From Arcticibacter tournemirensis (GTDB taxonomy: Bacteria; Bacteroidota; Bacteroidia; Sphingobacteriales; Sphingobacteriaceae), in assembly GCF_006716645.1 (NCBI RefSeq), contig NZ_VFPL01000001.1:2666001-2730000 (forward strand): a stretch of 64,000 nt of DNA, in the 5' to 3' direction. Made by a program: the position numbers and the translations under genes. Of the stretch, positions 13,511-39,500 are shown one piece after another (the stretch's first letter is position 1; each line of letters starts with the position of its first letter). The notes beneath the pieces were generated by a model that was given only the letters and a program-made list of their open reading frames with translations, did no database searches and had not been told where the DNA came from.

Positions 13511-13520
13511 ACAGAAAAAC

Positions 13521-15832: not shown

Positions 15833-15856
15833 AGTTTTAATGATTGGCTTAATAGT

Positions 15857-15909: not shown

Positions 15910-15939
15910 CCGCAATAAACGGTTAAGTAAATTCTTGTG

Positions 15940-16368: not shown

Positions 16369-16401
16369 CTTTTACCTGTACAAACCTAAATTTTTTTTCG
16401 A

Positions 16402-17352: not shown

Positions 17353-17365
17353 TTTTTTGTACTTT

Positions 17366-17391
17366 AATAAAAGACAAATATATCTTTTATT
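17366..17391 (-). promoter_or_regulatory. 26-bp palindromic operator in front of ric
   Basis: Exactly the reverse complement of the nirK site, so identical in the sense of its own gene. It ends 13 bp before the ric ATG and covers the ric -7 box. With so little room downstream, an activator role at this spot is unlikely and repression fits better. Confidence 0.8.
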
Positions 17392-17406
17392 CTTTTTGAA
17401 AGCAAA
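17375..17406 (-). promoter_or_regulatory. ric promoter (TTTG-N20-TATATTTG)
   Basis: On the minus strand, TTTG (17403-17406), a 20-bp spacer and TATATTTG (17375-17382) match the Bacteroidota -33/-7 consensus. The -7 box is the core of the palindrome. The predicted leader is about 15 nt. Confidence 0.72.
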
Positions 17407-17448
17407 TCATAAATGGGAATACGCGGTACTAAATGAGAGGGAATTGTT

Positions 17449-18633: not shown

Positions 18634-18968
18634 CAATATCCTTTTAGCTGTCGCAAACCTTCTTCGGTTATGTTATCGTAACTCCATTCTGGTTCCCAGG
18701 TTAGTTTTACCTCAGCAGAGAAAGCCGGGAAATTATGCTCAAGGCAGTTCTTTACAGAATTAAGGATGGCGTCGCCCATAGGGCAGTACTTCGATGAGAG
18801 CGTCATTACCACCACAATTTGTTTTTCGGAGTCGTTTACGCTGACATCGTATACGAGTCCGAGATCAATTATATTAATATGAAGCTCTGGGTCAATAACT
18901 GTTCTTAAAGCTTCAGTTACTTCCATATTAAGGAAGGATGACTTGTTGGTAATATCAAAGTTTGTCAT
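18633..18968 (-). CDS. MIP18/DUF59 (SufT/PaaD-like) Fe-S assembly factor
   Basis: 111 residues. Family signature: VTEALRTVIDPELHINIIDLGLVYDVSV, then VVMTLSSKYCPMGDAILNSVK and VKLTWEPEW. These small cytoplasmic proteins help insert Fe-S clusters (SufT, PaaD). The Cys in KYCPM is the position usually conserved. It sits between two polytopic membrane genes, overlapping the upstream one by 14 bp. In an NO-linked operon, a role in cluster maturation or repair fits. Confidence 0.85.
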   Translation of the reverse strand: MTNFDITNKSSFLNMEVTEALRTVIDPELHINIIDLGLVYDVSVNDSEKQIVVVMTLSSKYCPMGDAILNSVKNCLEHNFPAFSAEVKLTWEPEWSYDNITEEGLRQLKGY

Positions 18969-22279: not shown

Positions 22280-22296
22280 GATTGTCCCGATTTAAA

Positions 22297-23493
22297 TTAT
22301 AACTTCAGTCTGATTCGTTTTTTCTCCATCAGGCGAACAATTAAAACGATACAAAGTGAGAAAATAAGTGATTTTAACAGGCCGATAGTGCCGGTGCGAA
22401 AGAACATGGGTAAACGGCCTCCTGTAACTTCGAGGATTGCCTCGTGGATGTAAGGTATAAGATAGCAGGTTAATGTACTCGTTCCCGCTGCTTTTATCAC
22501 GTTATACCAACTTTTTAAACCCCTGATCTCTGTTAAGTAAGTTATTACGGCGAAGCTGATCATACTGATGCCGGTGCAGATTCCTACCCATGGGGGAGTA
22601 GCTCTTATTTTTGAAATTCCCCATACCGGGCGGGTGTAGAGCCCAAAAGCAAGCATTGCCAGTGCTCCGGCAAGAATAAACAGCCAGAAATATTTGTTGG
22701 CGGTGCCGAGCTTACTGTACATTAATGCGGTGATAACGCCAGCCATTGTAAGTGCAGGCATAGAGCCATCGCCTACAATCGAGATATACTCTTTTACGAT
22801 GTCCAATGAAGAAAACCATCCCGAATGGGCGGCGCAGTTAAAGAAAATGAAAAAGAGAAATGCTGCAATTTGCACCAATATACGGCCTTTTGAGAATAGG
22901 AAGATAGAACTGCTGATGAGATAGGTCCACCCAATCAGTCCGAGTATACCCCACCACTGCGGTCTCATTCCAATCTGGCCGCCCGCTTCAGAATTCCCTT
23001 CGTACAACAGGGCCAGCAACACCAGCAAGGAGATACCCGTGGTCTTTAAATAAACGACACGGTTTTTACCGGCACTTTTTGGGTAGTCGAGCCAGATCAG
23101 GAAGAAAGAGAACGTGATTATTATTTCCCATAACCATCGGGGTAACAAGGCAGAATCGCTGTAATTTCCGAGGTTGACATGGAAAAACCCCATTACCAGC
23201 AATGCAATTGCCCTTCCGGCAATATGTATGGCAATAGATTGAATGGAAGAGCCCTTCCTCAAACGGTTTTGAATAGCAAAAGGCACAGAAAGACCCACGA
23301 TGAAAAGGAAAGCCGGAAATATAACGTCGGCAAATCCCATTGCATCGGCAGCAGCATCAGCATGTCCCATCCAGGAAGGAATATTGATTAATGTGCCATG
23401 ATCATTTACAAATATCATAAGCAGTAATGTAAGGGCCCGAAAAGCGTCGATAGAAATTAGGCGTCCGGTACCCGGGTTTAGAGTTGAGGTCAT
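22297..23493 (-). CDS. NagX-like membrane acyltransferase-fold protein (DUF5009/HGSNAT family)
   Basis: 398 residues, about 10-12 helices. The signature start is RLISIDAFRALTLLLMIFVND, then FADVIFPAFLFIVGLSVPFAI. The family includes lysosomal heparan-alpha-glucosaminide N-acetyltransferase and bacterial NagX, repeatedly found in GlcNAc loci. Candidate roles are GlcNAc transport or transmembrane acetylation; neither is proven here. It is transcribed ahead of nagA, and its leader may contain an attenuator (23588-23650). Confidence 0.8.
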   Translation of the reverse strand: MTSTLNPGTGRLISIDAFRALTLLLMIFVNDHGTLINIPSWMGHADAAADAMGFADVIFPAFLFIVGLSVPFAIQNRLRKGSSIQSIAIHIAGRAIALLVMGFFHVNLGNYSDSALLPRWLWEIIITFSFFLIWLDYPKSAGKNRVVYLKTTGISLLVLLALLYEGNSEAGGQIGMRPQWWGILGLIGWTYLISSSIFLFSKGRILVQIAAFLFFIFFNCAAHSGWFSSLDIVKEYISIVGDGSMPALTMAGVITALMYSKLGTANKYFWLFILAGALAMLAFGLYTRPVWGISKIRATPPWVGICTGISMISFAVITYLTEIRGLKSWYNVIKAAGTSTLTCYLIPYIHEAILEVTGGRLPMFFRTGTIGLLKSLIFSLCIVLIVRLMEKKRIRLKL

Positions 23494-24613: not shown

Positions 24614-25213
24614 TTATATAGTATTACTCCGGATGCGGGGTAATACTGTATTGTATAACAACTCCGCGCTTTGCTCCTGGGTTTGCATTGACGTGGGCAG
24701 CACCAGGTTTGCATCGTCGGCTCTTTCAAACTCCGAACTTATGCCCGTAAAATTGCTGATACTCTCGTTGCGAGCCTTTTTATAAAGACCTTTTACATCC
24801 CTCTGTTCACATATGTCTAATGGGCAGTCCACAAAAACTTCGAAATAACGATGATTCAAAATCTTCTTAGCGAGCTCCCGATGTTCGCGGAGAGGGGTAA
24901 TAAAAGAACATATTGCGATAATGTTGTTGCTTACCAGTATTTTAGCAATTTCGGCTACCCTTCTGATATTTTCATACCGGTCTGCAGGGTTAAACGACAG
25001 GTCGCGATTGATGCCTGAGCGAAGATTGTCGCCATCGAGTAATACTGAAAGATAACCGTTAGCTCTAAGCTTTTGCTCTACAATAGTTGCAATAGTACTT
25101 TTCCCCGCACCCGATAATCCGAGCAGCCATATTACAACCCCTTCCTGTTTGAGAAGTGACGTTGCAGAGACGCTCGCAGAGAGAAAAGGGTCAATATTTA
25201 GTTCGTTTTGCAC
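24614..25213 (-). CDS. cysC: Adenylylsulfate (APS) kinase
   Basis: 199 residues, normal for CysC. It phosphorylates APS to PAPS, the universal sulfate donor. P-loop GLSGAGKS (residues 32-39), DGDNLRSGINRDLSF, YENIRRVAEIAKIL and the SFITPLREHR lid segment are all present. No ATG precedes the P-loop; the start is most likely the GTG at 25213, overlapping cysQ by 16 bp. It is the last gene of a nine-gene operon and would supply the sulfotransferase encoded at 26933. No ATP sulfurylase (cysD/cysN) is in the window. Confidence 0.93.
   Translation of the reverse strand: MQNELNIDPFLSASVSATSLLKQEGVVIWLLGLSGAGKSTIATIVEQKLRANGYLSVLLDGDNLRSGINRDLSFNPADRYENIRRVAEIAKILVSNNIIAICSFITPLREHRELAKKILNHRYFEVFVDCPLDICEQRDVKGLYKKARNESISNFTGISSEFERADDANLVLPTSMQTQEQSAELLYNTVLPRIRSNTI
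24620..24647 (-). terminator. Stable stem-loop over the cysC stop region
   Basis: AGTATTACTCCG (24620-24631) and CGGGGTAATACT (24636-24647) form a 12-bp stem (one G-T) with a four-base loop, inside the last codons of cysC. The tail that follows is A/T-rich but not a clean T run, so 3'-end formation or protection is only suggested. Confidence 0.4.
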
Positions 25214-25956
25214 AGGAAGCTGCCGTTTAATAAAGACGGTTTATTGTATTTAAATGGATTGCCTTCAGGTGTCGTCATCGCAGCACCGGCCAAAGTGGCA
25301 ATCGCATGGCCGGCGGCGGTATCCCATTCCATCGTTGGGCCCTTTCTATAATAAACATGAGCCTTTCCCTCAGCTATCATACAAAACTTTAATGAACTGC
25401 CTGCCGAAACAGAATTCACAATGGGAAATGCGGATAAAAATGCTTCTTCTTCAGGAGATGAATGCGATCGGCTGCCCACTGATATCCATGCAGAGGCCCC
25501 CGAATCTGCTTTTATTTGCTCAGGAACGCCATTCGAAATCTTCCAGCTCCCGGTTTCAGGTTCTCCATAATATAGTGTGTCCTGAACGGGAATATAGATC
25601 ACGCCCAATATTGGATGACCATCATGAATCAAGGCAATATTTACTGTAAACTCACCATTTCTGCTGATGAATTCCTTTGTTCCGTCGAGAGGATCCACGC
25701 ACCAGTAATAATCCCAGTTCTTTCTTACCTCGTAAGGAATATTGCTGCCTTCTTCCGATAGTACCGGAAAAGAAGGTTTTATTTTCTTCAGCCCCTTTAA
25801 AATAATCTCATGTGAGATCCGGTCTGCCATAGTTAGTGGCGACTTATCGTCTTTCAGAGTAATGTCGAAATTCTGCAGGGGACCATTATAAACGTCTAAG
25901 ATGGCATTTCCCGCTTCTTTTGCCAGAGATAATAGCTTATCAATATCTATTTTCAT
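25198..25956 (-). CDS. cysQ: 3'(2'),5'-bisphosphate nucleotidase
   Basis: 252 residues from the ATG at 25956, one base after the previous stop; an upstream-extended ORF reads back through the GH16 gene and is rejected. It hydrolyses PAP, the by-product of PAPS-dependent sulfation, to AMP. Metal-site motifs of the inositol-phosphatase superfamily are visible: SEEG, WCVDPLDGTKEFI and EWDTAAGHAI. Its partners here are CysC and the PAPS sulfotransferase, which is exactly where PAP must be cleared. It overlaps cysC by 16 bp. Confidence 0.93.
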   Translation of the reverse strand: MKIDIDKLLSLAKEAGNAILDVYNGPLQNFDITLKDDKSPLTMADRISHEIILKGLKKIKPSFPVLSEEGSNIPYEVRKNWDYYWCVDPLDGTKEFISRNGEFTVNIALIHDGHPILGVIYIPVQDTLYYGEPETGSWKISNGVPEQIKADSGASAWISVGSRSHSSPEEEAFLSAFPIVNSVSAGSSLKFCMIAEGKAHVYYRKGPTMEWDTAAGHAIATLAGAAMTTPEGNPFKYNKPSLLNGSFLCKTN

Positions 25957-25957
25957 A

Positions 25958-26926
25958 CTATTCAGAGCGATCGTCATTAGGTTCGTTAAAGGGGGTGAAT
26001 TTAACCCAATCAACAAACATTTCCTTTGAATCAAAATCAGGAGCCTTATAGGTTCCACTGTCGTTACCAGCCCACCAGGCAAACCAATTACCAATATAGA
26101 TATATGAAGCTAAATAAGGAACCTTAACTGTGCTTGTATGTAGTAATTTATTGTCTATATAATATTCTACTCTCGGTGTCTGTCCGTTTCCGCCCGTATG
26201 CCAGTCCCAGCGATATATATGAAATGAATTGTCGTTCAGTTCTTTTGCTAAAGCAATGGCCTTGCTTTCATATTCGCCGGCTTTTTCGCCAATCCAGTTT
26301 GTTAACAAGGGGCTGCCAAGATTAACACCTTTTATCTCTATATCTATTTCATGATTAAGAGTAATAGTGCCGTTATCCGGAATATTACCTGCAGTAACAG
26401 CTTTTTGATAAGCTTCCGGATTCGATACAGCTGTTATCTGCTTATACCAAAAGGTCCATGCAGCGGATAACACTCCCATATCCGGAGTTTGAAGAACTCT
26501 CATCTTGATCTCATAGCGCCCTGAAGCAAAACGTTGCTTCGATTTGGCTACTCCCCCCAAACGTTTGCTCTGCCCGCCGGCTCCCCTCAACGTTCCCGAA
26601 TATTGATCGCCAAGAGCCCTCATTACGGCAAAACCGTTTTTTAGATACACGTTCTCTTTAATTACGCCGCCATGCTGATGCGCAGTGTTTGAAGGTTGTC
26701 CCCATATCTGGTTGAGTTTTTCCCACTTAGTATCATCAAAAGTGCCTTCGAACTTATCATAAAAGATGCCCGCTGCTGTGAGGTCTCCAATGTCCGGGTC
26801 GCCATCCGGCTCTTCCGTAACTACGGGATCCGGGCCGGGCTCTTTGTCCTGTGTTTTTTCTCCTTTCTTACAACCTATAGCAAGCACAAAAATCAGTAAA
26901 GAGAGCTTAGTCAGATGTTTTTTCAT
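25958..26926 (-). CDS. GH16-family glycoside hydrolase, lipoprotein
   Basis: 322 residues. Lipoprotein signal (LAIGCKKG, Cys19), an acidic/Pro linker, then a GH16 beta-jelly-roll. The catalytic strand HEIDIEIKG supplies Glu193 (nucleophile), Asp195 and Glu197 (acid/base). The C-terminus VDWVKFTPFNEPND is shared with the other GH16 at 35473. GH16 enzymes cut beta-1,3 or beta-1,4 linkages in galactans, glucans or host-type glycans; the actual substrate is not deducible. Surface or periplasmic lipoprotein, seventh in the SusCD/sulfotransferase operon, 6 bp after the sulfotransferase gene. Confidence 0.88.
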   Translation of the reverse strand: MKKHLTKLSLLIFVLAIGCKKGEKTQDKEPGPDPVVTEEPDGDPDIGDLTAAGIFYDKFEGTFDDTKWEKLNQIWGQPSNTAHQHGGVIKENVYLKNGFAVMRALGDQYSGTLRGAGGQSKRLGGVAKSKQRFASGRYEIKMRVLQTPDMGVLSAAWTFWYKQITAVSNPEAYQKAVTAGNIPDNGTITLNHEIDIEIKGVNLGSPLLTNWIGEKAGEYESKAIALAKELNDNSFHIYRWDWHTGGNGQTPRVEYYIDNKLLHTSTVKVPYLASYIYIGNWFAWWAGNDSGTYKAPDFDSKEMFVDWVKFTPFNEPNDDRSE

Positions 26927-26932
26927 ATGTCT

Positions 26933-27955
26933 TTAAATTTGCGGATTCTGAGCATTTCGGTTTTTTATTGCATGGAGTATCGCCAACTGCGGTTCACGTC
27001 GCTCAAGGTCACTTTTTTTAGCACTTGAAAGTATCTCCTTTCTTAACAGAGCGTTTTCAATGGTATACTTTTTTATCATCTCTTCAGAAACAAGGTTGGA
27101 GCTGGTCATGGATGTATGTAGAGCATATCCTAAACGCTTTAATGTGTCACCCGCAATCAGCTCAAACAACTCAAGGTCAGTATCCTTGAAGTCTTTCAGA
27201 AATTTCCCGGTATTGTTACTGATGATAGGCCGTTCAAGATTCGACCACATTTCTCCAGCTGCTGCAGTTATACGTGAAGTATTGGACCGGTAAAACTGCA
27301 GCATATCTTCAGAATAACTAATCTCAAGGAAGTTGCAGAGCTTTTGTACTATTTGCCCGGGATGTGTTATCAGCGATTCGTAGTTTAATGCAAAGAAACG
27401 TGAGCTGTCCAGGCGCGACGCGAGCTCAAGACATGCGTCCTGATCTTGCTTCCATTGTTTGGCAAGAAAGTAAGTATGTTTTTCACCTACAACAGCTTTT
27501 TTGAAGGATACGGCTACATCGCGGCCGTCCCGGTACAGAAAAATATATTTTAAGTCGGGTTGCACTTTTTCGAGCTCAGTGGCGTAGTAAACATTACCCA
27601 TGCTTTTGCAACACCAGTATTTCGATCCCTTAGTGAGGGCGGCCTGCTGGTAAATGAGTTTATTCAGTTCAAAAAGGCTAAATACTTCAGACTGCCTGAA
27701 AAGCTGCTCTTTGTCGGCAAATATTCCTTCCCATGGTACCGGATTGGCATTTACAAAGTCAACCACATCGCTGATAAGAGCGCGGTACGCTGCTTGGTCT
27801 AGCGGCCCATAGAGTGGCAGGAGTGGAACAAATGTTGTAAGAATGTGTGGGGGGGGGGGGGATGCAATATCTTCCGATTGATCCAGGATCACCCGCAAAA
27901 GGTTTGATCCAGATCGCTGAGTTCCTATTATCTGTATTCCTGCTGGTTTTTTCAT
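26933..27955 (-). CDS. PAPS-dependent sulfotransferase with a 13-base homopolymer
   Basis: 340 residues, no signal peptide, cytoplasmic. It would transfer sulfate from PAPS to a hydroxyl or amine. The 5'-phosphosulfate loop is GTQRSGSNLL (residues 11-20) and the 3'-phosphate motif YRDGRDVAVS (141-150). Its start overlaps the chrA stop by one base (TAATG). Codons 32-36 contain thirteen consecutive C on the coding strand (Ser-Pro-Pro-Pro-Pro). Loss or gain of one base would truncate the protein shortly after, before the second PAPS motif. The acceptor (glycan, lipid or small molecule) is unknown. Confidence 0.9.
   Translation of the reverse strand: MKKPAGIQIIGTQRSGSNLLRVILDQSEDIASPPPPHILTTFVPLLPLYGPLDQAAYRALISDVVDFVNANPVPWEGIFADKEQLFRQSEVFSLFELNKLIYQQAALTKGSKYWCCKSMGNVYYATELEKVQPDLKYIFLYRDGRDVAVSFKKAVVGEKHTYFLAKQWKQDQDACLELASRLDSSRFFALNYESLITHPGQIVQKLCNFLEISYSEDMLQFYRSNTSRITAAAGEMWSNLERPIISNNTGKFLKDFKDTDLELFELIAGDTLKRLGYALHTSMTSSNLVSEEMIKKYTIENALLRKEILSSAKKSDLERREPQLAILHAIKNRNAQNPQI
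27849..27861 (-). repeat. G13/C13 homopolymeric tract inside the sulfotransferase gene
   Basis: Thirteen G in a row on the plus strand, within codons 32-36 of the gene. The gene is in frame at this length. Tracts this long are prone to slippage. Confidence 0.95.
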
Positions 27956-29196
27956 TAATATAAGACTATTTTCAATATTACGCCGGCCGCAATGGAAGCA
28001 AGAATCAAATAGACCGGACTTACTTTATATTTATAATTCAATAAAAAAGATAGGATAGCTACTGATGCCACTACGACGTTCCTGTCCAGCTGTTGTAATA
28101 GTTTTAGGCCCGAGGCGATGATCAATCCTATCACTATGGCTTTTATACCTGCCAGCACATGCCGGAGACGTTTATTGTCTTTGTTTTTATCCAGTATTTG
28201 TGATACGAAAATCATCAGCACTGCTGACGGTATGAATATGGACATGGTTGCCAGTATAGCTCCTGTTATACCTGCAAGCTTATAACCAATAAACGTTGCG
28301 CTAACGAGAATAGGACCAGGAGTGACCTGACTGAATGCTATGGCATCAATAAACTCCTGCGTACTTAACCATTTCATTTCGTTCACAAAAAGTGATTGCA
28401 TGATAGGAATCATGACATAACCGCCGCCGAAAAGAGAAAGGCTGATTCCCGAAAATACAAGGCCTATTTTAAGATATGTGTTTTCTATCAGCCTTGGGAT
28501 ATTAGCTATAAATGATAACTCGCAGATGGCCAGAATTGTAAGCATCAGCTTTGCAGGCAGGTCCATTCTAAGGCTCATTCTTAAACCGGGAGATTCTTTG
28601 ATACCTGGGCGAACGCCGGCGGTTTTCATTATCACGCCAGCAAGCCCGCCGGCAATAATCAGCCCGATGGTAATAAAATAACTCTTGGAAATAAACTGAA
28701 TTATTACGGCAATAATGCTCAGAGCCGACTTTCTTACGTCAGACGCCGCTTCTTTTCTGAACAGATTTAGTCCTGTTGAAATAATAATAGCGCCCACTGT
28801 TGCTCCGGTGAAATACATGATGCTGCCGGCTTGCAAACTATAAGCGTAGCGAAAATAGGCAACAGACAAGATAAACATTAAGATACATGCCGGAAGAAGA
28901 ATGCCAAGCATACTGATTGCAGCACCTTTCTTCCCCCTCAAAAAATGCCCGATGTAGGTGACTACGTTGACAGCTAAAGGGCCGGGAAGAAGACTGGCCA
29001 CAGTTACAGCGCCCAAAATAGTGTCGTTGTCAATAACATTATCTTTGTCAACCATTTCCCGCTGTACTACGGAAATCAAAGCCATGTGCCCGCCGAATGA
29101 CACCAATCCTATTTTAAAAAAGGCGGTGAATAAATATCGCAGCGAAACTTTCTTGTCAGCAGCCTTACTTCGGCCCGTATCAATGTCCCTGTACAT
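27955..29196 (-). CDS. ChrA-family (CHR) transporter
   Basis: 413 residues from the ATG at 29196, inside the last 17 bases of the upstream gene; an earlier TTG would add 11 residues. It is a two-domain (long-chain) CHR protein with repeated halves: KIGLVSFGGHMALISVVQREMV...SLLPGPLAVN in the first and FSGISLSLFGGGYVMIPIMQ...SQVTPGPILVS in the second. Characterised relatives export chromate, an analogue of sulfate. In a sulfate-activation operon the natural ligand may be sulfate or another sulfur oxyanion; this is inference. Confidence 0.88.
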   Translation of the reverse strand: MYRDIDTGRSKAADKKVSLRYLFTAFFKIGLVSFGGHMALISVVQREMVDKDNVIDNDTILGAVTVASLLPGPLAVNVVTYIGHFLRGKKGAAISMLGILLPACILMFILSVAYFRYAYSLQAGSIMYFTGATVGAIIISTGLNLFRKEAASDVRKSALSIIAVIIQFISKSYFITIGLIIAGGLAGVIMKTAGVRPGIKESPGLRMSLRMDLPAKLMLTILAICELSFIANIPRLIENTYLKIGLVFSGISLSLFGGGYVMIPIMQSLFVNEMKWLSTQEFIDAIAFSQVTPGPILVSATFIGYKLAGITGAILATMSIFIPSAVLMIFVSQILDKNKDNKRLRHVLAGIKAIVIGLIIASGLKLLQQLDRNVVVASVAILSFLLNYKYKVSPVYLILASIAAGVILKIVLY

Positions 29197-30619
29197 TTGA
29201 AATAGGGTTATAAGATAAAAAATTAGCAATTTCTTCTATCCTGTAAGGATCACCGCCTACCTGTACTTTCCATAATACTCTTCCCTTCTTGTCAGTAATA
29301 AGAAGAGCTCTTGGATCGGTGACGCAGAACAATATCTTATCTCCGTTGAATAATTCTGCATTTCCTTTTGCTGAGGTGTAATAGTCCTTCAGTAGCGGGA
29401 CATTCAGCGTTGTTACAGCAGTATGCGTGATTGTGTCCACCTTAAATGCCATCGCTCTGGTAATCTGTTTTTTTGAACCATTGTCGAGAATCATCAACTC
29501 ACCCTTTCTGTTGATATGTGCAAAATGCTGCGAGCTAAACAAATCATCCTTATTTAACTGAAAATTACCCTTCTCTCCCAATTTCCATATCACTCTGCCC
29601 GTTTTATAATCGATCTTCCAAATCTGGTTCAAATCCCGGTAAGAAATCAGAAAGTTGCCATCTTTTTCCTTAAATACCGAGTTGGCATGCACCCAGTCTT
29701 TTTTATGTTTGAGTATTTCCTTGTCATCTAGAGGATTGAGGTGATCGAGAACCGACCACTGCCATATTTTTTTGCCTTTTCTTGAAAATACTACTATTCC
29801 GTCTCCGTGAACGGTATCTCTTTTAGCTCCGCCGGCGGCAGAAAGATCGAATACTTTTTTTTCGAATGTCAGGGCATAAATATTGCCATTCTCATCTGTG
29901 CGAACTTCATGATGGACCATTTTATCCATTTCGCCTTTACCTCTCTGAAGATGAGTTAGCACCTTACCCGAGAGATCAAGCTCCACAATTTCATCCCCAC
30001 CCGAAGAAGGGATTTTCTCCGAACCTACTATACATAACACCGTTCTGTCTGGTGTCCAGTGCGAAACTTTTACGCCTTTTTTAAAAGCCTCGTACCATAC
30101 AATATTTCCTTTGTGGTCAATAATAACAGCAGATCCAGGTTCTGTTAATATCTGGGTAAGAAAGAACTTTCCCTTCATCTCCTTACTGAACTTTTTATTC
30201 ATGTATTCAAGGCTGAAATAGGGTGTTGCCTGATAGATAGGCTGAGTTTCGAGAGGATGATTCCTGCTAAATGCGGTTTGAGAAGAGTTAAATGCCACTA
30301 CCTTAAACGTATAGTTAGTGTTGGCGAGTGCATTCGTGACCCACAGTGTATGCTCTTTTGTCCCTTCGGAAATACCCGTATACAGGGTATCTCTGCTGTT
30401 TTTGGCCCAGTATTTTATAAAGGTCTTGCATTTCCTGTTTGTAGTGACCTTTAATTTCAGGCGGAGCCGGTTCTCAGGCAAATGAATCAGATCTATATTT
30501 TTAATTTTAAGCGGGTTTAGAGTATTAAGAATGTGTTCGCCCCGCCATAATATCGTCGTTGCAATGACTGCCAATGTTATTATGAAGATCAGAAGAATGG
30601 ATGTTTTTTTTCTGCCCAT
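29180..30619 (-). CDS. Arylsulfate sulfotransferase (ASST) family protein
   Basis: 479 residues. An N-terminal signal anchor (residues 7-24) precedes a fibronectin-like domain (about 40-125) and a beta-propeller. The ASST catalytic set appears conserved by spacing with E. coli AssT: MVHHEV (His236/237), WVHAN (His311, Asn313), SYRD (Arg328) and SSQHFAH (His365). ASSTs move sulfate from an aryl sulfate to another hydroxyl without PAPS, via a sulfo-histidine, in the periplasm. Here it follows susD by 59 bp and overlaps chrA. Having both a PAPS-type and a PAPS-independent sulfotransferase in one operon is uncommon. Confidence 0.85.
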   Translation of the reverse strand: MGRKKTSILLIFIITLAVIATTILWRGEHILNTLNPLKIKNIDLIHLPENRLRLKLKVTTNRKCKTFIKYWAKNSRDTLYTGISEGTKEHTLWVTNALANTNYTFKVVAFNSSQTAFSRNHPLETQPIYQATPYFSLEYMNKKFSKEMKGKFFLTQILTEPGSAVIIDHKGNIVWYEAFKKGVKVSHWTPDRTVLCIVGSEKIPSSGGDEIVELDLSGKVLTHLQRGKGEMDKMVHHEVRTDENGNIYALTFEKKVFDLSAAGGAKRDTVHGDGIVVFSRKGKKIWQWSVLDHLNPLDDKEILKHKKDWVHANSVFKEKDGNFLISYRDLNQIWKIDYKTGRVIWKLGEKGNFQLNKDDLFSSQHFAHINRKGELMILDNGSKKQITRAMAFKVDTITHTAVTTLNVPLLKDYYTSAKGNAELFNGDKILFCVTDPRALLITDKKGRVLWKVQVGGDPYRIEEIANFLSYNPISNVQGH

Positions 30620-30678
30620 ATCGAATAATGATTAATCCCGAAAGATAACAATCACGCCTGTATCTTTCGGGATATAAC

Positions 30679-32247
30679 TTATTTTACCCTGCCATTGTTA
30701 ACAGAGGGTTCGAGGGAGGTATTACTCTGGATCTCGTTCTGAGGATATGGATAAACCGTATAGTCCACATTGTCTGAATAGGTGGAAGGGTTTCTTAAAG
30801 TAGGAACTACCTTTTCCTTAAACTTTAGTAAAGGATTGGAGCCATTGGAAGCACTGCGGCCCCAACGGATGAGGTCGTCTCTTCTTCTGCCTTCCATGAA
30901 GAATTCTTTAAACCTTTCTTCAAAGATCCTGTCTCTTAAAGCCGCTTTTGAACTATAGCTGGCAAGCTGAATACTACTTAGTCCTGCACGATTTCTGATG
31001 GCATTGATCACGTCAATACTTTCCTGATTAGGCCCGTTAAGCTCATTTAATGCTTCTGCTCTCATCATCAGAACATCGGCATAGCGAATGATAGTTACGT
31101 TATTAAAACCGGCGTAATTGTAATTGTTCACGTGAGGGTACTTCAGGTTATAAACATAGGTTGCAAGAACAGTATCCGGCGCTGTTCCGCCCTCTCCGCC
31201 AAATTCTTTCGGAACACTGATCACCTGGCCGTAAAGGGAAGTAAATTTACCCGTTAGGAGATTCCTTCTGTCGTCAGTCTTATCGAATAAAGAGTAGAAT
31301 TGAAGGTGGATCGGAAAGCTTCCCCAGCCTCTGTTTAAATCCCATGGAGTAGAATTGATACCAAAGCTGTTGCTGTTAATACCGTAGGCCCCTGGTTCGT
31401 TTGACGATTTGAGGACGAAGATAAATTCATTGTCCGACCGGTTACCGGTATCAAAGAGGGAGACGATGCCACCTTCAGCAGGAGTTCTGAGATCGTAGTT
31501 TTTGTTCATCACTTCCAGAGCCTTGTCAGCGGCTTTCTGCCACTCACCGCGCCGCATATACAATCGCACGAGCAAAGCTTTTGCAGCACCGCTGGTTGCC
31601 CGCGCAACTTCAGCAGGGGGGTAAGAAGGGGGAAGATTCGACTCTGCGAATTCAAGGTCGGCTATTATGGCCGCCTCTACCTCAGCTTTAGGTGTTAATG
31701 CCGGATTCTCGTCGCTTTCTGTAAATTCAGAAGAAGACTTTAAAAGAAGAGGAACATCGCCCCATAGAGAGGTCGCATCATAATAGGCAAGGGCCCGGAG
31801 AAAGCGTACTTCCCCTATATTCTGATTTTTAACCTGCTCTGAAGACCCGTTCTTCACATAATCTATCTTCTTAATCAAGGCTTCTGCTTCATTGGCCCTC
31901 GAAATCATTCTGTAAACGCTTGTCCACACATCATTTATTGCAGCATTGGTAGCGTCGTAAGTAAGCTGATCAAGCTGTACACCCTGGCGTGCCGTTACAG
32001 CTGTTGTGACAGCATCAGCAGGGTATTCATAAAGCCAGTACAGATAGCCAGCATAATATCCGAAGCCTCCGTTGTCTTTTAACGCTGCGTAAACTCCGCG
32101 TACCCCCTGTTCTCCGTGTTGTGGCTTTGTAAGCGTATTTTCATCATATACAGAGAATGTTTCCTCCTGGAGCCCATTTTCGCAAGCTCCGATAGTTAGC
32201 ACTCCAAGGACGGATACTGTAGTTATTATTTTGTATATTCTTTTCAT
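30679..32247 (-). CDS. SusD/RagB-family outer-membrane glycan-binding lipoprotein
   Basis: 522 residues, lipoprotein signal with lipobox IGAC. SusD family features include the TPR-like N-terminus (VRFLRALAYYDATSLWGDVPLL), the C-terminal VTIIRYADVLMMRAEALNEL and ERFKEFFMEGRRRDDLIRWG. It captures the oligosaccharide and acts as the lid of the SusC channel. 18 bp after susC. Confidence 0.95.
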   Translation of the reverse strand: MKRIYKIITTVSVLGVLTIGACENGLQEETFSVYDENTLTKPQHGEQGVRGVYAALKDNGGFGYYAGYLYWLYEYPADAVTTAVTARQGVQLDQLTYDATNAAINDVWTSVYRMISRANEAEALIKKIDYVKNGSSEQVKNQNIGEVRFLRALAYYDATSLWGDVPLLLKSSSEFTESDENPALTPKAEVEAAIIADLEFAESNLPPSYPPAEVARATSGAAKALLVRLYMRRGEWQKAADKALEVMNKNYDLRTPAEGGIVSLFDTGNRSDNEFIFVLKSSNEPGAYGINSNSFGINSTPWDLNRGWGSFPIHLQFYSLFDKTDDRRNLLTGKFTSLYGQVISVPKEFGGEGGTAPDTVLATYVYNLKYPHVNNYNYAGFNNVTIIRYADVLMMRAEALNELNGPNQESIDVINAIRNRAGLSSIQLASYSSKAALRDRIFEERFKEFFMEGRRRDDLIRWGRSASNGSNPLLKFKEKVVPTLRNPSTYSDNVDYTVYPYPQNEIQSNTSLEPSVNNGRVK

Positions 32248-32265
32248 GACATTTTTTTTATCTCA

Positions 32266-35200
32266 TTAAAATGTTATTCTCGCACCTAACAGATACATCC
32301 TGTTTACAGGATATGCATTAAAATCAATCCCCCTTGCTACATTCCTGTTTTGCTGTGAATTGTTGACGAGGTTACCAACTTCGGGATCCAGCCCCGAGTA
32401 ATTGGTGAAGGTGTACAGATTCTGCGCGTTCACATAGATATCAAGACCGGCTATACCTACCGGCTTTAGAATGGAGGACGGTACATTGTAAGTGAGTGTG
32501 ATGTTTTTTAATCGCAGAAAGTCTGAACTTTCAACAAAGCGCGAATTTACCCATCCTCCATGAGAGTTACCATAAAAACTCCTTGCCGGAATAGTTCCTG
32601 TGGTATTTTCTGGCGACCAAACGTCTGTTAAAACCTCCTTTAGAACATTTCCTTGTGTAACAGGATTCAGGAGATCGATTTTTTGTACGTTAAGAAGTTT
32701 TCCTCCGGTTTGTCCCTGTAAAACAATGTCGAGATTGAAATTCTTATATGTGATATTATTAGTGAGACCAATCAGAGACTTCGGCACTCCGCTGCCAAGG
32801 ATTTTACGGTCATTTGCATCCAAAATACCGTCCATATTCAAATCAACAAATTTGGGGTCGCCGGCCTCTGCATTTGGATGCGTTGTGGTTAACACAGGGT
32901 CATTCTCCTGGATAATGCCATCATAAACATAGCCATAAATAGCTCCAACCGGTTCGCCTGTGCGTATAATAAAAGGACTCTCAAAACTTGCCGCACCATC
33001 AGGCTTAAAGCTACCCACATAAATGTCGGCGTTATTAGTTCCGAGTGCTTTGACCTTATTGGTATTGTAAGAATAGGAGAACGTGCTGTTCCACTTAAAT
33101 TGCCTGGATGACATATTAACTGTCTGGAGTGAAAGTTCGATGCCCTTATTGGCTACTTTCCCTGCATTGCCAAAGCGTGTCTGAAAACCTGTCGATGGCG
33201 AGATGCTTCGGTCTAACAGAAGGTCATTCGTCTGCTTATTGTAATAGTCGGCTTCGAAGATGACACGGTTCTTCAGAAGTCCAAGTTCCAGCCCAAAGTC
33301 CCAGGCAGCGGTTTCTTCCCATTTCAGGTCGGCGTTAGAAAGTCGTGTAACAGCAATACCGCTAACGGTAGAGACACCGTCGAAAGTGTATTTAGTTGAG
33401 TTATCGCTGGCATAAGTAGCCAGTGAAATTCCGGAAGAAATACGATCATTTCCTGTAACCCCGTAACTGATCCTTGCTTTACCCGCAGATAAAATACCAA
33501 GATCCTTAATGAAGCTCTCTTCATTAAATCTCCAGGCAATAGCTACAGAAGGGAAGTATCCCAACTTATGATTGCTTCCAAAAACAGAAGATCCATCAAT
33601 CCTGTAGGTCCCGGTAAAAATATATTTGTCTTTATAATCATAATCTACCCGGCCGAACCAGCTTTTTCTTTTTACCAGCGTCTTCCCCGAATAGCCCGTA
33701 AACTGCTGCGCTGTCCCCAGGTTGTTGTATCCGAGGTCGTCGCTGCTGAAATTTGTCGCATTAATACCCTCTTCCTGATAGGTGTAGTTTTGGTGATTGT
33801 ATCCTAAAAGGAATTTAGCATTATGCCCATTCTTTTTCAGCTCATAATTTGCTGTGGGGTTAAAGATCAGGTCCTGTTCGCTTATATTGGTAATTGTGCC
33901 AATTCCCTTAGAAGCGACAGCATTTGGTACAGAGGAAGGCGCGAAATAAGAAACTTTGGCTTTGGTGATGTCGGCACCAAAATCAGACTGCAATGTAAGG
34001 TTTTTAACCGGCTGGTATTTTAAAGAGAAATAACCATTGGTCCTGTACGTCGTATTCTCTCTGTCTTCGGCTTCCAGGAAGTGCAGAGGGTTCTGGGCAT
34101 CAAGTTGAGCGGGCACTCCTGAGTCGAACGTTGACGCAGGGTTTGCTTTTAACACCTGTTTTAGAAATCCGTTGATTGTCGAAGGACTGAGTGGAAGGTC
34201 GTTTTGAATGCCATAATTACCAAATACTCTTGCTGTCATTTTAAATTTATCATTCACACTATGGTCAACGTTTACCCTTCCACCATATCTTTTAAACTGA
34301 GAATGGATAATAATACCCTCCTGACTCAGATAGTCGAAACTGGAAAATACAGCCGTTTTGCTTGACCCGCCAATAAAACTGACCACATGGTTCTGAACTG
34401 AAGCAGACCTGAAAGCCTCATCCTGCCAGTCTGTACCGAGGAGTCCTTTTTGCAGAGAATCTAGACGTCCGGGACCGTAAGGAGCCAGGCTGCCCTCCAA
34501 ACCCGACAACTTGTTAAGTCGTAATGCATGATCGTAGGGGCCAATGAGATCAAACCGGTCAACCACATTCTGGACCCCTAAATAGCTGTGTATATTGAGC
34601 CTGCTTTCTTTGTTTATTCCATTTTTTGTGGTTATCAGAATAACGCCGTTAGCGCCCCTCGACCCGTAAATGGCGGTGGATGCAGCGTCTTTCAGGATAG
34701 TCATTGATGCAATGTCTTCCGGATTCAGAGAAAATCCTACACCTGCATTCGTTGGAAACCCATCAATAACATAAAGAGGCTCGCTATCGGCGTTCAGTGA
34801 ATTCGTTCCCCTGATTCGTATGGATAAGGCAGCACCCGGCGTTCCGTTATTCTGGTTTACCTGTACGCCCGCCGCACGGCCCTGCAGGAGATTGGCAACC
34901 GACAGGGACGACTTGTTAAGATCTTCGGCATTAAGGGTAACCGCAGAACCTGTAAATGTGCTTTTATTCTTACTACCATAACCCACTACCATCACCTCAT
35001 TCAGGGAAGTTACGTCTGGCACCAGACGCACATCATGCTTCGGCAATCCTTTAACCGGAACCTCCTTAACATGGAATCCAATCATTGTAAAAACCAAAGT
35101 GGCATTTTCTTCCACCACCAACGTATACTTTCCGTTAATTGCGGTGGATGTGCCATTTTTTGTTCCTTTTTCAAGCACATTTACCCCCGCAAGAAGCTCT

Positions 35201-35364
35201 CCGTCATTGGCAGTAACAACTCCTGTAACCGTGATTTTTTTCCTGGCATTCAATGACGAACCCTGACCGGCAATCACTTCCGAAAATATAAATGCCTGGA
35301 TTATAAGAGCCGAAAATAATATTTTAAAAATAAGCCTAAGCTTTGTTGTAAAAGTATAATTCAT
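32266..35364 (-). CDS. SusC/RagA-family TonB-dependent outer-membrane transporter
   Basis: 1032 residues. Signal peptide, a carboxypeptidase-regulatory-like domain (about 45-125: TGVVTANDGELLAGVNVLEKGT), the RagA signature EVMVVGYG, a plug domain (NLLQGRAAGVQV...IRGTNSLNADSEPLYVIDG...AIYGSRGANGVILITTK) and a 22-strand barrel ending in Phe. It imports oligosaccharide into the periplasm with energy from TonB, partnered with the SusD at 30679. Second in the minus-strand operon, after the GH16 at 35473. Confidence 0.96.
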   Translation of the reverse strand: MNYTFTTKLRLIFKILFSALIIQAFIFSEVIAGQGSSLNARKKITVTGVVTANDGELLAGVNVLEKGTKNGTSTAINGKYTLVVEENATLVFTMIGFHVKEVPVKGLPKHDVRLVPDVTSLNEVMVVGYGSKNKSTFTGSAVTLNAEDLNKSSLSVANLLQGRAAGVQVNQNNGTPGAALSIRIRGTNSLNADSEPLYVIDGFPTNAGVGFSLNPEDIASMTILKDAASTAIYGSRGANGVILITTKNGINKESRLNIHSYLGVQNVVDRFDLIGPYDHALRLNKLSGLEGSLAPYGPGRLDSLQKGLLGTDWQDEAFRSASVQNHVVSFIGGSSKTAVFSSFDYLSQEGIIIHSQFKRYGGRVNVDHSVNDKFKMTARVFGNYGIQNDLPLSPSTINGFLKQVLKANPASTFDSGVPAQLDAQNPLHFLEAEDRENTTYRTNGYFSLKYQPVKNLTLQSDFGADITKAKVSYFAPSSVPNAVASKGIGTITNISEQDLIFNPTANYELKKNGHNAKFLLGYNHQNYTYQEEGINATNFSSDDLGYNNLGTAQQFTGYSGKTLVKRKSWFGRVDYDYKDKYIFTGTYRIDGSSVFGSNHKLGYFPSVAIAWRFNEESFIKDLGILSAGKARISYGVTGNDRISSGISLATYASDNSTKYTFDGVSTVSGIAVTRLSNADLKWEETAAWDFGLELGLLKNRVIFEADYYNKQTNDLLLDRSISPSTGFQTRFGNAGKVANKGIELSLQTVNMSSRQFKWNSTFSYSYNTNKVKALGTNNADIYVGSFKPDGAASFESPFIIRTGEPVGAIYGYVYDGIIQENDPVLTTTHPNAEAGDPKFVDLNMDGILDANDRKILGSGVPKSLIGLTNNITYKNFNLDIVLQGQTGGKLLNVQKIDLLNPVTQGNVLKEVLTDVWSPENTTGTIPARSFYGNSHGGWVNSRFVESSDFLRLKNITLTYNVPSSILKPVGIAGLDIYVNAQNLYTFTNYSGLDPEVGNLVNNSQQNRNVARGIDFNAYPVNRMYLLGARITF

Positions 35365-35472
35365 TGTTTAATTGCTTTTAGTCCGGTTAATTAATACAAA
35401 ACAAACAGGTGGAATTCTCATTCTTAGCTTGAGTTAATTGCGATGGGAGATTTTCGTATTTGTGTCATTTCT

Positions 35473-36279
35473 TTATTTTAAATCATTAGGTTCATTGAAG
35501 GGCGTGATCTTTACCCAATCCACATATAAGTATGCTGATTCAAAGTCGGCTTCTTTAATCCACCATGGAAACCAAATGCCTATGTTATAACATCCCGCGT
35601 GCGCCGGTATATTTTCAAAAGACGTATGAAGAAGCTTGTTGTCGTAATACCATTCTACCCGGGGCTTCTGTACATCACTTCCTGTGTGCCATTCGAACCG
35701 GTACAAATGATACTGCCCATCGGTTTGATTACCGAAAAACTTGTCGGCGTTATTGTATTGATCTTCACCGACACCTCTCCAGTTGGTCATCAGGCCCCAG
35801 TCGAGCCTTGAACTGTCGGGAGTACGGGGCGCCTGGTTGTGGCCCGGAAATTCAAAGTCTATTTCATGGTTAAAGTTGTCGTTCTCATAATAGAATGTCC
35901 AGAATGCAGTTAGAGCGCCTGGATGCGGGCAAATTTTAGCTTTTATTTCAAAGCTTCCCGAGGCATACATTTTTTTTGTAGAGGCAACACCGCCTACTTT
36001 GGTATTCTGACCGTGTCCTTTAATGCTTCCTTTATAAAGGTTGCCATTTGCCCTTATTATAAGATTCCCGTTACCTGCCGAAACATTTTCCGGGACTACA
36101 CCACCATGTCGCCCTTTTGCTGGATTCTCACCCCATTTTGAGTTTAGCAGAGTCCATACAGTTGTATCTATCGACGTTCCGTTGAAGTCGTCGAAAAAAA
36201 TCTGTGCGCTACTGCTTGCAGGGAAACAAATACACAAGAGGAACGGGCAGAGAAACAGAATAAAGGAACATCGTTGCAT
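35473..36279 (-). CDS. GH16-family glycoside hydrolase, secreted
   Basis: 268 residues with a Sec or possible lipoprotein signal (residues 1-25, Cys-rich hydrophobic core ending ASSSAQ). GH16 catalytic strand HEIDFEFPG gives Glu139, Asp141 and Glu143. It ends VDWVKITPFNEPND, the same tail as the second GH16 of the operon, so the two are paralogues although one is a clear lipoprotein with a longer linker. First gene of the operon, divergent from the HTCS. Probably cleaves the polymer outside the cell or in the periplasm. Confidence 0.88.
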   Translation of the reverse strand: MQRCSFILFLCPFLLCICFPASSSAQIFFDDFNGTSIDTTVWTLLNSKWGENPAKGRHGGVVPENVSAGNGNLIIRANGNLYKGSIKGHGQNTKVGGVASTKKMYASGSFEIKAKICPHPGALTAFWTFYYENDNFNHEIDFEFPGHNQAPRTPDSSRLDWGLMTNWRGVGEDQYNNADKFFGNQTDGQYHLYRFEWHTGSDVQKPRVEWYYDNKLLHTSFENIPAHAGCYNIGIWFPWWIKEADFESAYLYVDWVKITPFNEPNDLK

Positions 36280-36339
36280 AATAAGCGGCCTTAATTTTTT
36301 TTAAAACTACGCATATGTGCTATCAGATATGTTCCTATA

Positions 36340-36366
36340 GTCCCGATTTGTAGTAATTCTGTCCCG
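36340..36366. promoter_or_regulatory. Direct repeat in the HTCS/operon divergent region
   Basis: GTCCCG occurs at 36340-36345 and again at 36361-36366, 21 bp apart (two helical turns), midway between the divergent GH16 and HTCS genes. This arrangement suits tandem binding by an AraC-type domain, but it is unproven. Confidence 0.35.
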
Positions 36367-36524
36367 TTGGTACTTATATTCAATAAAAAGAATTTCTTTT
36401 ACGGTGGTAAAGGTAATTTAGCACTGCTATCTTTGAAAAGAGTAACTTTAAAATCCCGTTTTATAAATTGTAAAGGCTGTAAATAGGTTATATTAGCTTT
36501 TTCGGCTGGATTAAGAAAAGAAAT

Positions 36525-39500
36525 ATGAAATTTCGTTGCTTAGGTCTCTTTCTTATAATACTATTCTGTTCCGTTACTGCTTTTTCTCAAACAAATAATA
36601 CGCGGTTTGTTCGCATTGGCTTTGATGAGGGTTTATCGCAAAGTACGGTAAGACACGTGTTTCAGGATAGTAAAGGATTCTTGTGGTTTGGCACCAGAGA
36701 TGGTTTGAACAAGTATGACGGTTATAAATTTGTGGTCTATAAGAAGGATCTTGAGAATGGGAATAGCTTAAGTTCGAACGATATCAAGGCAATCACCGAG
36801 GATCGCGATGGCAAATTATGGATCGCAACATGGGAAGGTGGTGTAAACGTGTTTGATCCTAAATCCGGAAACTTTCGTCATTTCAGGAAACGGAAATCGG
36901 GTGCCGGTGGCATTTCCAGCGACTTTGTCGAGTGCATCAGCATAGATGGAGATAACAATGTATGGATGGGCAATGATTCAGAAGGACTAGATCTGTATGA
37001 CAGGAGGGAGCAGCGTTTTACTCATTTTGCCAGTTCAAAACACGACGTCCATTCGCTCAGCAGTAATAATATAACCTCGATATATGAGGATTCTCAAGGA
37101 ACTATCTGGGTAGGGACGACCAACGGGCTCAACCTGTACACAAAAAAAAACCGCAGATTTAAGCGGTTTATGCATGAACCAGGCAATGCGTTGTCTCTTT
37201 CCAATAACAAGATCAAATTTGTATTCGAAGATAGAAAAAAGAACCTTTGGATTGGTACTTATGGTGGCGGTCTTAATCTATTCGATCGTCAAACGCAGAC
37301 TTTTAGGAGAATTGCGTTAGGGCCCCGTACTTCCGACTATAATGTATTGCTTGCCATCGCCGAGGACAATAACGGCAATCTCTGGATAGGAACTGAAAAC
37401 AAAGGTCTGGTGGTATTTAATCCCTCGCGTAACTCCTGTATTTATTTTCCAAACAACGACAACGATAATACCAGTATTTCGAGCAGGACTATCAACTCTG
37501 TAATAAAAGACATTAAGGGGAACATTTGGATAGGAACCCTAAACGGGGGTGTAAATTTCGTCAGTACAGATGCCGGAAAGTTTAGTCATTACAGGCATCA
37601 GGAAGGCACAAACAGCCTGAGCAATAATATAGTGGATTGTATTTACGAAGATTCCAAGGGCTATTTGTGGATCGGTACAGATGGGGGCGGAGTAGACCGG
37701 TTCGATAGAAGAAACCGGCGGTTTACGAATTACAGGCATATTCCAAACAACGCCAATAGCATTGCCGGCGACTACATACCTTCTGTGTCTGAGGACGCCC
37801 GGCATTCGATGTGGATCGGAACATGGGGTGAAGGAATGACCGTTTTCGACCCTGTAAAAAATCGATATAAGCACTACCGCCATAATCCGTCTCAGGCGGG
37901 GAGCTTAAGCAACAACTATGTCTTTTATATCTATAAAGACAGCCGCAATCAGATGTGGGTAGGCACCTATGGCGGTGGATTGAACCGGTACGATTTTTCG
38001 AAAGATGCGTTTATTCATTACCAGAATGACTTGAGAAGCCGGTTCAGTCTGAGTAACAATTATATACTTACCATATCGGAAGACAGTAAAGGGAATCTAT
38101 TGATAGGTACCGATGGAGGAGGACTCAATATTATGAATCCGGCTACCGGTAGGTTTAAAGTATACAAGCATGTAGATGGCGTGAATAGCCTCAGTAACAA
38201 TAGTGTAAATTCGATATGGGAAGATAAAAAAGGCTTTATATGGCTGGGAACAAACTACGGACTAAACAGGTTAAATCCTGCAACCGGGGCTGTGAAGTCA
38301 TATTTTACAAAGGATGGCCTGTCAAACGATATTGTAACTGCATTGCAGGGGGATTCGCACGGCCGGCTGTGGATTAGTACTGCCGACGGTTTCTCCAGGC
38401 TGAATATGGAAAACGGGGCATTTAAGACTTTCACGATTGCCGATGGTTTGCAGGGTAATGAATTTAAAGCTGCAAGATGCTTCAGCGGTAACGGTTTGAT
38501 GTACTTTGGAGGCACCCGTGGCTTTAATGAGTTTAACCCTGCAAATATTAAAGAATATCCTTACGACCCGCCCCTTTTATTCACCGGCTTCCAGGTTTTC
38601 AACAAGGATGTGCCTATAGGAGAGAAAGGAGCAAACGGGGTGTCTGTCAGCGAAAACATAAATACCGTAAAACAGATCGTCTTGTCGTATAAGCAATCGG
38701 TCGTTACGTTTGAATTTGCATCTCTAAACTATGCAGACAAACAAAAAAAACAGTATGCATACAAACTTGGCGGGTTCGACAAGCAATGGCATTACATAGG
38801 TACAAAGAATAATATTACATATACCAATCTTGATCCGGGGGAGTACCTGCTGGAGATAAAAACGCTTACTAGTGATGGAAAATGGTCGGATAGAAAGGCC
38901 TCACTGCGCTTAGTTATAACCCCGCCTTTCTGGAAGACCTGGTGGTTCAGGTCGCTTTTTGTGCTGGGCGTCGGTGCCATTGTTTTGCTTGTATTTTATC
39001 AGCGGCTTTCATCTATACGGCAAAGGAACCGGCAGCTTGAAACGGAAGTTTCAAAGCGTACTTTACAGCTAAAAGAAATCAACAGCGACCTTCTTCGGAG
39101 TAACGAGAAAATTAAACATCAGAATGAAAAATTAGAAGAATACAACAGGGAGATCATGCAAAAATCCGACAAGATCCTGCGGCAACAGGAGCATATTGTT
39201 TACCAGAATCACGAGCTGGAAAAAACAGTCCTGGAGCTCGAGATGAGCAATAACACAAAAGACCGTTTTTTTTCGATCCTTGCGCATGACTTGAAAAACC
39301 CGGTGGCAGCACTTTCCGGTATTTCCGATTTGCTAAAACAGAAACTTCCAAAGCTTACAGAACAGGAAGTATATGCTTATGTTAACGACATTAACAAAAG
39401 TTCAAGCTCTGTTTATAATCTATTGATTAATCTGCTCGACTGGGCCCGCACTCAGAACAAGACGATAACCAGGAAGCCCTCGGATGTGAATGTGTACGAA

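Follow-up and report, generated by a model that had tools for sequence, protein, structure and literature searches.

A SusCD operon of Arcticibacter tournemirensis combines PAPS synthesis with two kinds of sulfotransferase and may encode a two-step sulfation relay

The stretch of DNA analyzed here (the window) comprises 64,000 nucleotides of the Arcticibacter tournemirensis genome (NCBI RefSeq assembly GCF_006716645.1, contig NZ_VFPL01000001.1, positions 2,666,001 to 2,730,000 of the forward strand). At window positions 24614-36279, nine minus-strand genes join a SusC-SusD uptake pair and two family 16 glycoside hydrolases (GH16) to an adenosine-5′-phosphosulfate (APS) kinase, a sulfotransferase (ST) dependent on 3′-phosphoadenosine-5′-phosphosulfate (PAPS), a ChrA-type transporter and an arylsulfate sulfotransferase (ASST). 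We propose, with confidence somewhat short of even, that this operon is devoted to sulfation, acting as a relay in two steps that spans the inner membrane and serves the SusCD locus. The proposal draws on the place of the operon in the sulfur metabolism of the genome, on the conserved linkage of its sulfur genes and on the residues of its ASST.

The coordinates and the Pfam and NCBIfam scans, which confirmed the family of all nine genes and of the divergent hybrid two-component system (HTCS) regulator, bear out an initial reading of this DNA from its letters (the original prediction): nine packed genes with an HTCS opposite, two sulfotransferase types and no sulfatase, none being found by Pfam among the nine. 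The features are as follows.

24614-25213, minus strand: CysC, APS kinase (PAPS synthesis); PF01583 at 8.9e-58, TIGR00455 above cut-off; GTG start, 16 bp overlap with CysQ
25198-25956, minus strand: CysQ, 3′(2′),5′-bisphosphate nucleotidase (removal of 3′-phosphoadenosine-5′-phosphate, PAP); TIGR01331 above cut-off
25958-26926, minus strand: GH16b, lipoprotein-like, EIDIE motif; PF00722 at 9.1e-8 and alignment
26933-27955, minus strand: PAPS-dependent ST (Sulfotransfer_3) with a TPST/CurM-like fold; PF13469 at 2.6e-26
27955-29196, minus strand: ChrA-type (CHR superfamily) transporter with two repeats; Chromate_transp PF02417 at 3.3e-76
29180-30619, minus strand: ASST; Arylsulfotrans PF05935 at 1.8e-30, 106.6 bits against a cut-off of 24.2
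30679-32247, minus strand: SusD-family protein; PF07980 at 2.4e-35
32266-35364, minus strand: SusC/RagA TonB-dependent transporter; TIGR04056 at 1.8e-248
35473-36279, minus strand: GH16a, EIDFE motif; PF00722 at 1.8e-12
36280-36524 (245 bp): gap between the operon and the divergently transcribed HTCS, probably regulatory to judge by its position
36525-40805, plus strand: HTCS regulator; Reg_prop, Y_Y_Y, HisKA, HATPase_c, Response_reg and HTH_18 (AraC-type helix-turn-helix)
40895-43432, plus strand: GH20 beta-hexosaminidase, possible accessory; PF00728 at 1.1e-90, 89 bp downstream of the HTCS

The largest intergenic gap in the block is the 108 bp between GH16a and SusC; 18 bp separate SusC from SusD and 59 bp SusD from the ASST. 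Further downstream the genes are tighter still: the ASST and ChrA overlap by 17 bp, ChrA and the ST by 1 bp and CysQ and CysC by 16 bp, with 6 bp between the ST and GH16b and 1 bp between GH16b and CysQ. These spacings take ATG 29196 as the most likely start of ChrA and ATG 25956, 1 bp past the GH16b stop, as that of CysQ, whose longest open reading frame would begin at TTG 26094. Separate promoters or terminators inside the block would have spoken against a single unit. Terminator-like sites stand at the level of shuffled sequence (12 against 12.2 expected); promoter-like sites exceed it (38 against 26.6 expected, standard deviation 5.9), but they were counted with a sigma-70 consensus, to which promoters of Bacteroidota do not conform, and internal promoters are possible. 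The GC content of the block (0.433) is similar to that of its flanks (0.433 and 0.447).

The genome as a whole (5.66 Mb, 100% complete) contains a single APS kinase match and a single PF13469 sulfotransferase, both within the operon, and the only match to the window ASST, searched with the protein rather than the Pfam model, is the operon copy. CysQ is one of two PF00459 proteins, and chromate-transporter domains above cut-off occur in ChrA and at two further loci. CysN, CysD and CysH are clustered at 0.36 Mb, 2.3 Mb from the operon, with no CysC adjoining. This CysH passes the APS-reductase model TIGR02055 (237.6 bits against a cut-off of 235.3) and fails the PAPS-reductase model TIGR02057 (145 against 254.2 bits) as well as TIGR00434, so that, by these scores, PAPS is probably not needed for assimilation in this organism. 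With CysC unique and located in the operon, and with these CysH scores, the PAPS made at this locus most likely serves sulfation. Sulfatases are encoded elsewhere in the genome, with 12 full-length PF00884 matches above cut-off and two short matches below it. At 2111597-2112569 of contig C1 lies an apparently broken sulfatase, whose PF00884 match is split in two and contains two in-frame stops.

The linkage of the sulfur genes was followed through 399 genomes of the family, searched with the window ST at E<=0.001. Matches were found in 44 genomes: 40 strong ones (41 loci including the window's own) and four weak ones (E 3e-5 to 7e-4), which were scored as lacking the ST. The other strong STs are 57-64% identical to the window ST, apart from four at 51-52%, and are spread over six genera; within the genus itself only one of the six sampled genomes, the one studied here, has the gene. 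An ASST is present in all 40 strong-ST genomes compared to 46 of the 359 others, and CysC in all 40 compared to 94 of 359 (134 genomes being CysC-positive at E<=1e-30, where 198 match at E<=0.001). The corresponding Fisher values, 3e-31 and 1e-21, ignore shared ancestry and are descriptive only. Linkage was counted by tblastn (E<=1e-5, more than 25% of the query) in 40 fetched family loci, L040-L079; L035, L036, L037 and L039 were treated as copies of L072, L077, L079 and L076. ChrA and the ST are adjacent and on the same strand in 40/40 loci, with their aligned segments 3-129 bp apart. The fetched stretches also contain the ASST in 34 loci, SusD in 34, SusC in 33, CysQ in 32 and CysC in 31, and when longer fetches and coordinates are used CysC is found within 18 kb in 37/40, leaving as exceptions L062, L075 and L048, the last of which is close to the end of a contig. 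Linkage and co-occurrence on this scale led us to reject a chance neighborhood.

The loci fall into three types. In type A (16 loci, plus the window and L034), the order ST-ChrA-ASST-SusD-SusC runs along one strand: the first four genes are co-stranded in 16/16 loci and SusC as well in 15/16, L061 ending at a contig end. The sulfur genes are thus conserved together with this SusCD pair, whose SusD is 66-73% identical to that of the window. The full nine-gene order was seen in no other fetched locus, L059 and L034 coming closest. A GH16 of the window's kind is present in 11/16 type-A loci (ten GH16a, one GH16b in L059), and the Parapedobacter loci L076-L079 carry another GH16-like lipoprotein (cluster c9), whose profile matches beta-glucanases and for which the one member scanned gave no Pfam match; in these four a GH20 also adjoins SusC. 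In the 18 loci of type B, ASST, SusD and SusC are divergent in sequence (31-37% identity), stand in a different order and cluster with an M1-peptidase-like gene; GH123_N, DUF5107 and M60 genes join them in extended loci such as L081. In the type-B locus L069 (4817-7848), SusC is split into two frames of 487 and 511 aa. Type C (6 loci) consists of CysC-CysQ-ST-ChrA alone.

In L034, from Sphingobacteriales bacterium 50-39, the ST and CysQ are fused in one 621-aa frame with both domains, and this natural fusion ties PAP removal to the window-type ST. Among open reading frames longer than 350 aa in L034-L092 (L080 being the window's own genome), a sulfatase signature matched only once, in the extension of L087: a PF00884 protein about 11 kb past the ASST. 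SusCD loci for sulfated glycans normally carry sulfatases. The original prediction had suggested here a logic opposite to that of a sulfatase locus, and this is supported, as PAPS is made and used and PAP is removed. Different STs, 25% and 21% identical, lie beside their own CysC in L111 and L116 (genomes G206 and G323).

Outside the family, 71/385 genomes of a class-level sample gave ST matches at E<=0.001, mostly weak, with five strong ones besides the own genome (41-45% identity). In three of the five (L127 and L130 from family f38, L128 from f15), ChrA, ST and ASST are contiguous and co-directional, and among these distant trios only L128 has a SusCD pair. APS kinase is encoded elsewhere in all five genomes. 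ChrA-ST-ASST is therefore the core with the widest conservation, to which SusCD looks like an addition. In other Bacteroidia, the weakly similar STs of L132 and L133 lie amid genes that, by eye, resemble polysaccharide synthesis and export, and some 3 kb from the ST of L133 there is a frame of 677 aa that contains CysC.

All 34 members of the ASST alignment match PF05935 at E<=0.001; the profile was built from these 34 rows, window included, without the L044 ASST, which is cut by the locus end. The best PDB match of the window ASST by sequence is Cpz4 (9kf4/9kf6; profile against 9kf4 4.2e-27), and the profile also matches 3elq, the AssT of uropathogenic Escherichia coli (EcAssT, or EcAST), at 5.2e-6. 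In the latter match, window H311, N313, R328 and H365 align with EcAssT H356, N358, R374 and H436, and H237 with the histidine taken as H252. According to a 2026 review, His436 of EcAssT is catalytic and His252, His356, Asn358, Arg374 and Thr501 bind the sulfuryl group (PMC13426309). The AlphaFold model (mean predicted local distance difference test score, pLDDT, 93.3) has an N-terminal helix at 3-34, a beta domain and the propeller fold of known ASSTs, with AssT 4p04 followed by Cpz4 9kf4 as top Foldseek matches. Histidines 236 and 237, N313 and H365 do not vary over the 59 aligned ASST rows, 58 of which also retain H311. All type-A rows (18 once copies are removed) have R328, as do the ASSTs of the three distant trios and 1/17 ASSTs from loci without an adjacent ST, that of L113, which itself lacks the H356 equivalent. 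Within the aligned rows, the full five-residue set thus goes with ASSTs that adjoin ChrA-ST, in three families.

The N-terminus of the window ASST reads as an uncleaved membrane anchor, and window-type ASSTs mostly carry such a predicted anchor. A script pattern, not a trained predictor, found a lipobox-like N-terminus in 0/17 type-A relatives. By eye, a cysteine follows the hydrophobic stretch in the type-A ASSTs of L062 and L075 and in the seven type-B rows that the pattern missed, and these may be lipoproteins; among the ASSTs of the distant trios, the one in L128 looks like a lipoprotein and the other two like secreted proteins. Judged from these predictions, all the N-termini appear to point outside the cytoplasm. 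A SusC-SusD-ASST trio recurs in family genomes away from the window-type ST in L099-L110, L112, L114, L115 and L117, several of these loci carrying a GH123_N, DUF5107 or cytochrome c gene. Its ASST-like protein, in which the equivalent of R374 is missing, may have changed as an enzyme or may serve in binding.

Sulfotransfer_3 matches all 27 aligned STs, and the segments TQRSGSNLL and RDGRD, which we take to be PAPS-binding, are invariant in the 27 rows; the L034 ST, outside this alignment, reads IQRSGSNLL. The nearest solved enzymes by fold (Foldseek) are tyrosylprotein sulfotransferases, and by sequence profile CurM and the olefin-synthase STs, followed by tyrosylprotein sulfotransferases. 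As tyrosylprotein sulfotransferases use a phenolic hydroxyl, a phenolic acceptor is plausible for the modeled ST. Since its long branches made the ChrA tree of little use, pairwise identities were used instead: the window ChrA is 34-36% identical to the three distant trio ChrAs and 27% to its own paralogue (L095).

In the relay that we propose, CysC would make PAPS in the cytoplasm, the ST would load the sulfuryl group onto a small, probably phenolic carrier, and CysQ would destroy the PAP. The carrier sulfate would then cross the inner membrane through the ChrA-type transporter (less boldly, ChrA would carry only the sulfate for PAPS), and on its far side the active-site histidine of the membrane-anchored ASST, in the periplasm, would accept the sulfuryl group before its transfer to a hydroxyl of a saccharide brought to the periplasm by SusCD and GH16, the whole being under HTCS control. 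What the analysis establishes is the gene content and layout of the operon, the uniqueness of these sulfur genes, their conservation and joint occurrence, the catalytic residues and predicted fold of the ASST and its kinship to Cpz4. The carrier and its passage through ChrA, a handover that runs from the ST to the ASST, a saccharide as acceptor and the periplasmic location of the ASST are inferred. As the ASST appears extracytoplasmic and PAPS is made in the cytoplasm, some carrier would be needed to bring the sulfate through the inner membrane; ChrA, as the constant neighbor of the ST, is the obvious transport candidate; and SusCD, GH16 and the HTCS suggest a saccharide acceptor from outside. 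The likely coupling of ST and ASST and the constant ChrA-ST pair are additions to the original prediction.

The pairing of the two enzymes has a precedent in caprazamycin biosynthesis in Streptomyces, where the PAPS-dependent Cpz8 sulfates a phenolic compound, from which Cpz4 moves the sulfate to a sugar (PMC4257720, PMC6731281, PMC13426309). There, as here, a PAPS-dependent ST and a PAPS-independent ASST are encoded together, and the window ASST is Cpz4-like, with Cpz4 its best PDB match by sequence and second by fold. However, the window locus adds ChrA, CysC, CysQ, SusCD, GH16 and an HTCS, its ASST has a predicted anchor, and the genome lacks the type III polyketide synthase. We therefore liken the two systems in the way they would work, with the window ST compared to Cpz8 by role, and do not assign the locus to the Cpz system. 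A Bacteroidota cluster with putative PAPS-synthesis genes beside a PAPS-dependent ST is described in the available text on cholesterol sulfation in Bacteroides (BT_0411-BT_0416), where BT_0413-0415 are reported to complete PAPS synthesis (PMC9417993). The likeness to the window rests on that description, which mentions neither an ASST nor SusCD; in the window genome, moreover, CysD and CysN lie 2.3 Mb off. The periplasmic EcAssT shares the propeller fold, the catalytic His and the sulfuryl-binding His, Asn and Arg but is encoded with DsbL/DsbI, with no donor-making ST mentioned in the part of PMC13426309 available, whereas the PAPS-dependent ST of the window lies two genes from its ASST. The SusC-SusD pair, the glycoside hydrolases and the divergent HTCS are those of polysaccharide utilization loci, with sulfation genes in the place that sulfatases hold in loci degrading sulfated glycans. 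Among the matches listed from the open-access literature, taken by titles and the beginnings of abstracts, no description of such a sulfotransferase/SusCD/ChrA arrangement was found.

Several observations weigh against the relay. The ST stands without ChrA or ASST nearby in L126 (close to a contig end), in L129 and in L038 (44% identity), and in the type-C loci the ASST is found elsewhere, in a SusC-SusD-ASST trio. The R374 equivalent is missing in 17/17 aligned type-B ASSTs (18 loci), where ST-ChrA is retained, and 10/17 type-B rows have the lipobox-like N-terminus. An ASST occurs without a window-type ST in 46/359 family genomes, ChrA could simply import sulfate, and SusCD, GH16 and HTCS genes are normally catabolic. 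No PF00195 match was found in the genome with a search that detected 5/14 controls (3 above cut-off), and a Cpz-type shuttle made by a type III polyketide synthase was rejected on that ground.

Some of these points would fit two separate jobs under one regulator, in which the ST sulfates a cytoplasmic product, ChrA imports sulfate and the ASST independently shuttles sulfate among imported aryl compounds or glycosides in the periplasm. The ASST matches in genomes without the window-type ST and the ST-ChrA-CysQ-CysC loci apart from an ASST in six genomes argue for it, as does BT_0412, a neighbor in the Bacteroides cluster envisaged as a sulfate importer in the available part of PMC9417993. Yet an ASST accompanies the ST in 40/40 strong-ST genomes, and the aligned ASSTs with all five residues are those adjoining ST-ChrA in three families; we think this division of labor somewhat unlikely. 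The target of the ST and ASST could instead be something the cell makes and secretes itself, such as a glycan, a lipid or a peptide with tyrosine, which SusCD and GH16 would remodel or retrieve. The resemblance of the ST fold to protein-tyrosine sulfotransferases and the trios without a SusCD pair in L127 and L130 are in keeping with this idea, but Pfam found no glycosyltransferase or polymerase among the nine genes (short peptide genes were not sought), and HTCS regulation suggests a response to an incoming glycan. A self-made product is thus improbable, more so than two separate jobs.

The remaining explanations concern the gain rather than the transfer of sulfate. Sulfated glycans or aryl glycosides might be imported and stripped of their sulfate by the ASST, with the ST running in reverse to regenerate PAPS, so that sulfate is trapped; some PAPS-dependent STs can regenerate PAPS from PAP with an external donor (PMC13426309). 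CysQ, which destroys PAP, and CysC, which makes PAPS from APS, both point forward, however; CysH scores as an APS reductase, which would probably place PAPS off the assimilation route; and no sulfatase is present among the nine genes, so we hold scavenging to be very improbable. Trapping of released sulfate, as the original prediction suggested, was rejected, as neither a sulfatase nor anything else that would release sulfate supports it. The alternative offered there, that the ASST may take sulfate directly off a sulfated import, is possible but leaves unexplained both the ASST in every strong-ST genome and the two genomes of a different family in which ChrA-ST-ASST stands with no SusCD pair. 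Finally, general sulfur assimilation genes might have come to lie by chance inside a SusCD operon, CysC and CysQ being assimilation enzymes in other settings and CysH also passing the broad model NF002537/PRK02090, named phosphoadenylyl-sulfate reductase. Against this, the genome has its own CysD, CysN and CysH at a distance of 2.3 Mb, the last scoring as an APS reductase, a strong ST match is absent from 359/399 family genomes, and the linkage is conserved. Service to assimilation alone is unlikely with the sole APS kinase and ST encoded here, and it was rejected as the only role given the CysH scores and a unique, linked CysC; the chance explanation seems to us scarcely credible.

On the glycan side, SusC and SusD are adjacent and the locus holds two GH16 genes and a linked HTCS, as in polysaccharide utilization loci. 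The closest solved structures to GH16a are (1,3-1,4)-beta-glucanases, which the profiles of both GH16 groups also match, and the two groups match each other weakly (hhalign probability 19%). The SusCD/GH16/HTCS content of the glycan-utilization operon first predicted is therefore confirmed, and its role in utilization, read from gene content, is plausible but unproven. A NagA-type amidohydrolase and a DUF5009 gene lie at 21176-23493, beyond the CysC end of the operon; the NagA-type gene and the GH20, on either side, hint at N-acetylhexosamine in the substrate. Two genes follow the GH20, one for a UbiD-type decarboxylase (43486-45324) and one for a protein of the alpha-2-macroglobulin family with 2099 aa (45391-51690), and positions 9820-20253 hold a multicopper oxidase/cytochrome c, a nitric oxide reductase (NorB with a cytochrome-c-like domain) and a COX1-like protein, a denitrification-type neighborhood.

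To return to the relay, a broader version of it would make ChrA-ST-ASST a Bacteroidota module for moving activated sulfate over the inner membrane, with an aryl carrier charged by the ST, export by a CHR-superfamily protein and an anchored or secreted ASST sulfating envelope acceptors, here saccharides delivered by SusCD. We regard this generalization as possible though doubtful. For most bacterial ASSTs, according to the 2026 review, neither the role in the cell nor the natural substrates are known (PMC13426309). In this locus an ASST is genetically tied to a PAPS-dependent ST, to genes that make PAPS and remove PAP, to a transporter and to a system for uptake, which makes its donor, its acceptor and the route across the membrane testable in relatives such as Parapedobacter. 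If the proposal is true, the CHR family would have a transport function beyond inorganic oxyanions, ASSTs would have a natural, self-made donor, and a SusCD locus would be adding sulfate instead of removing it.

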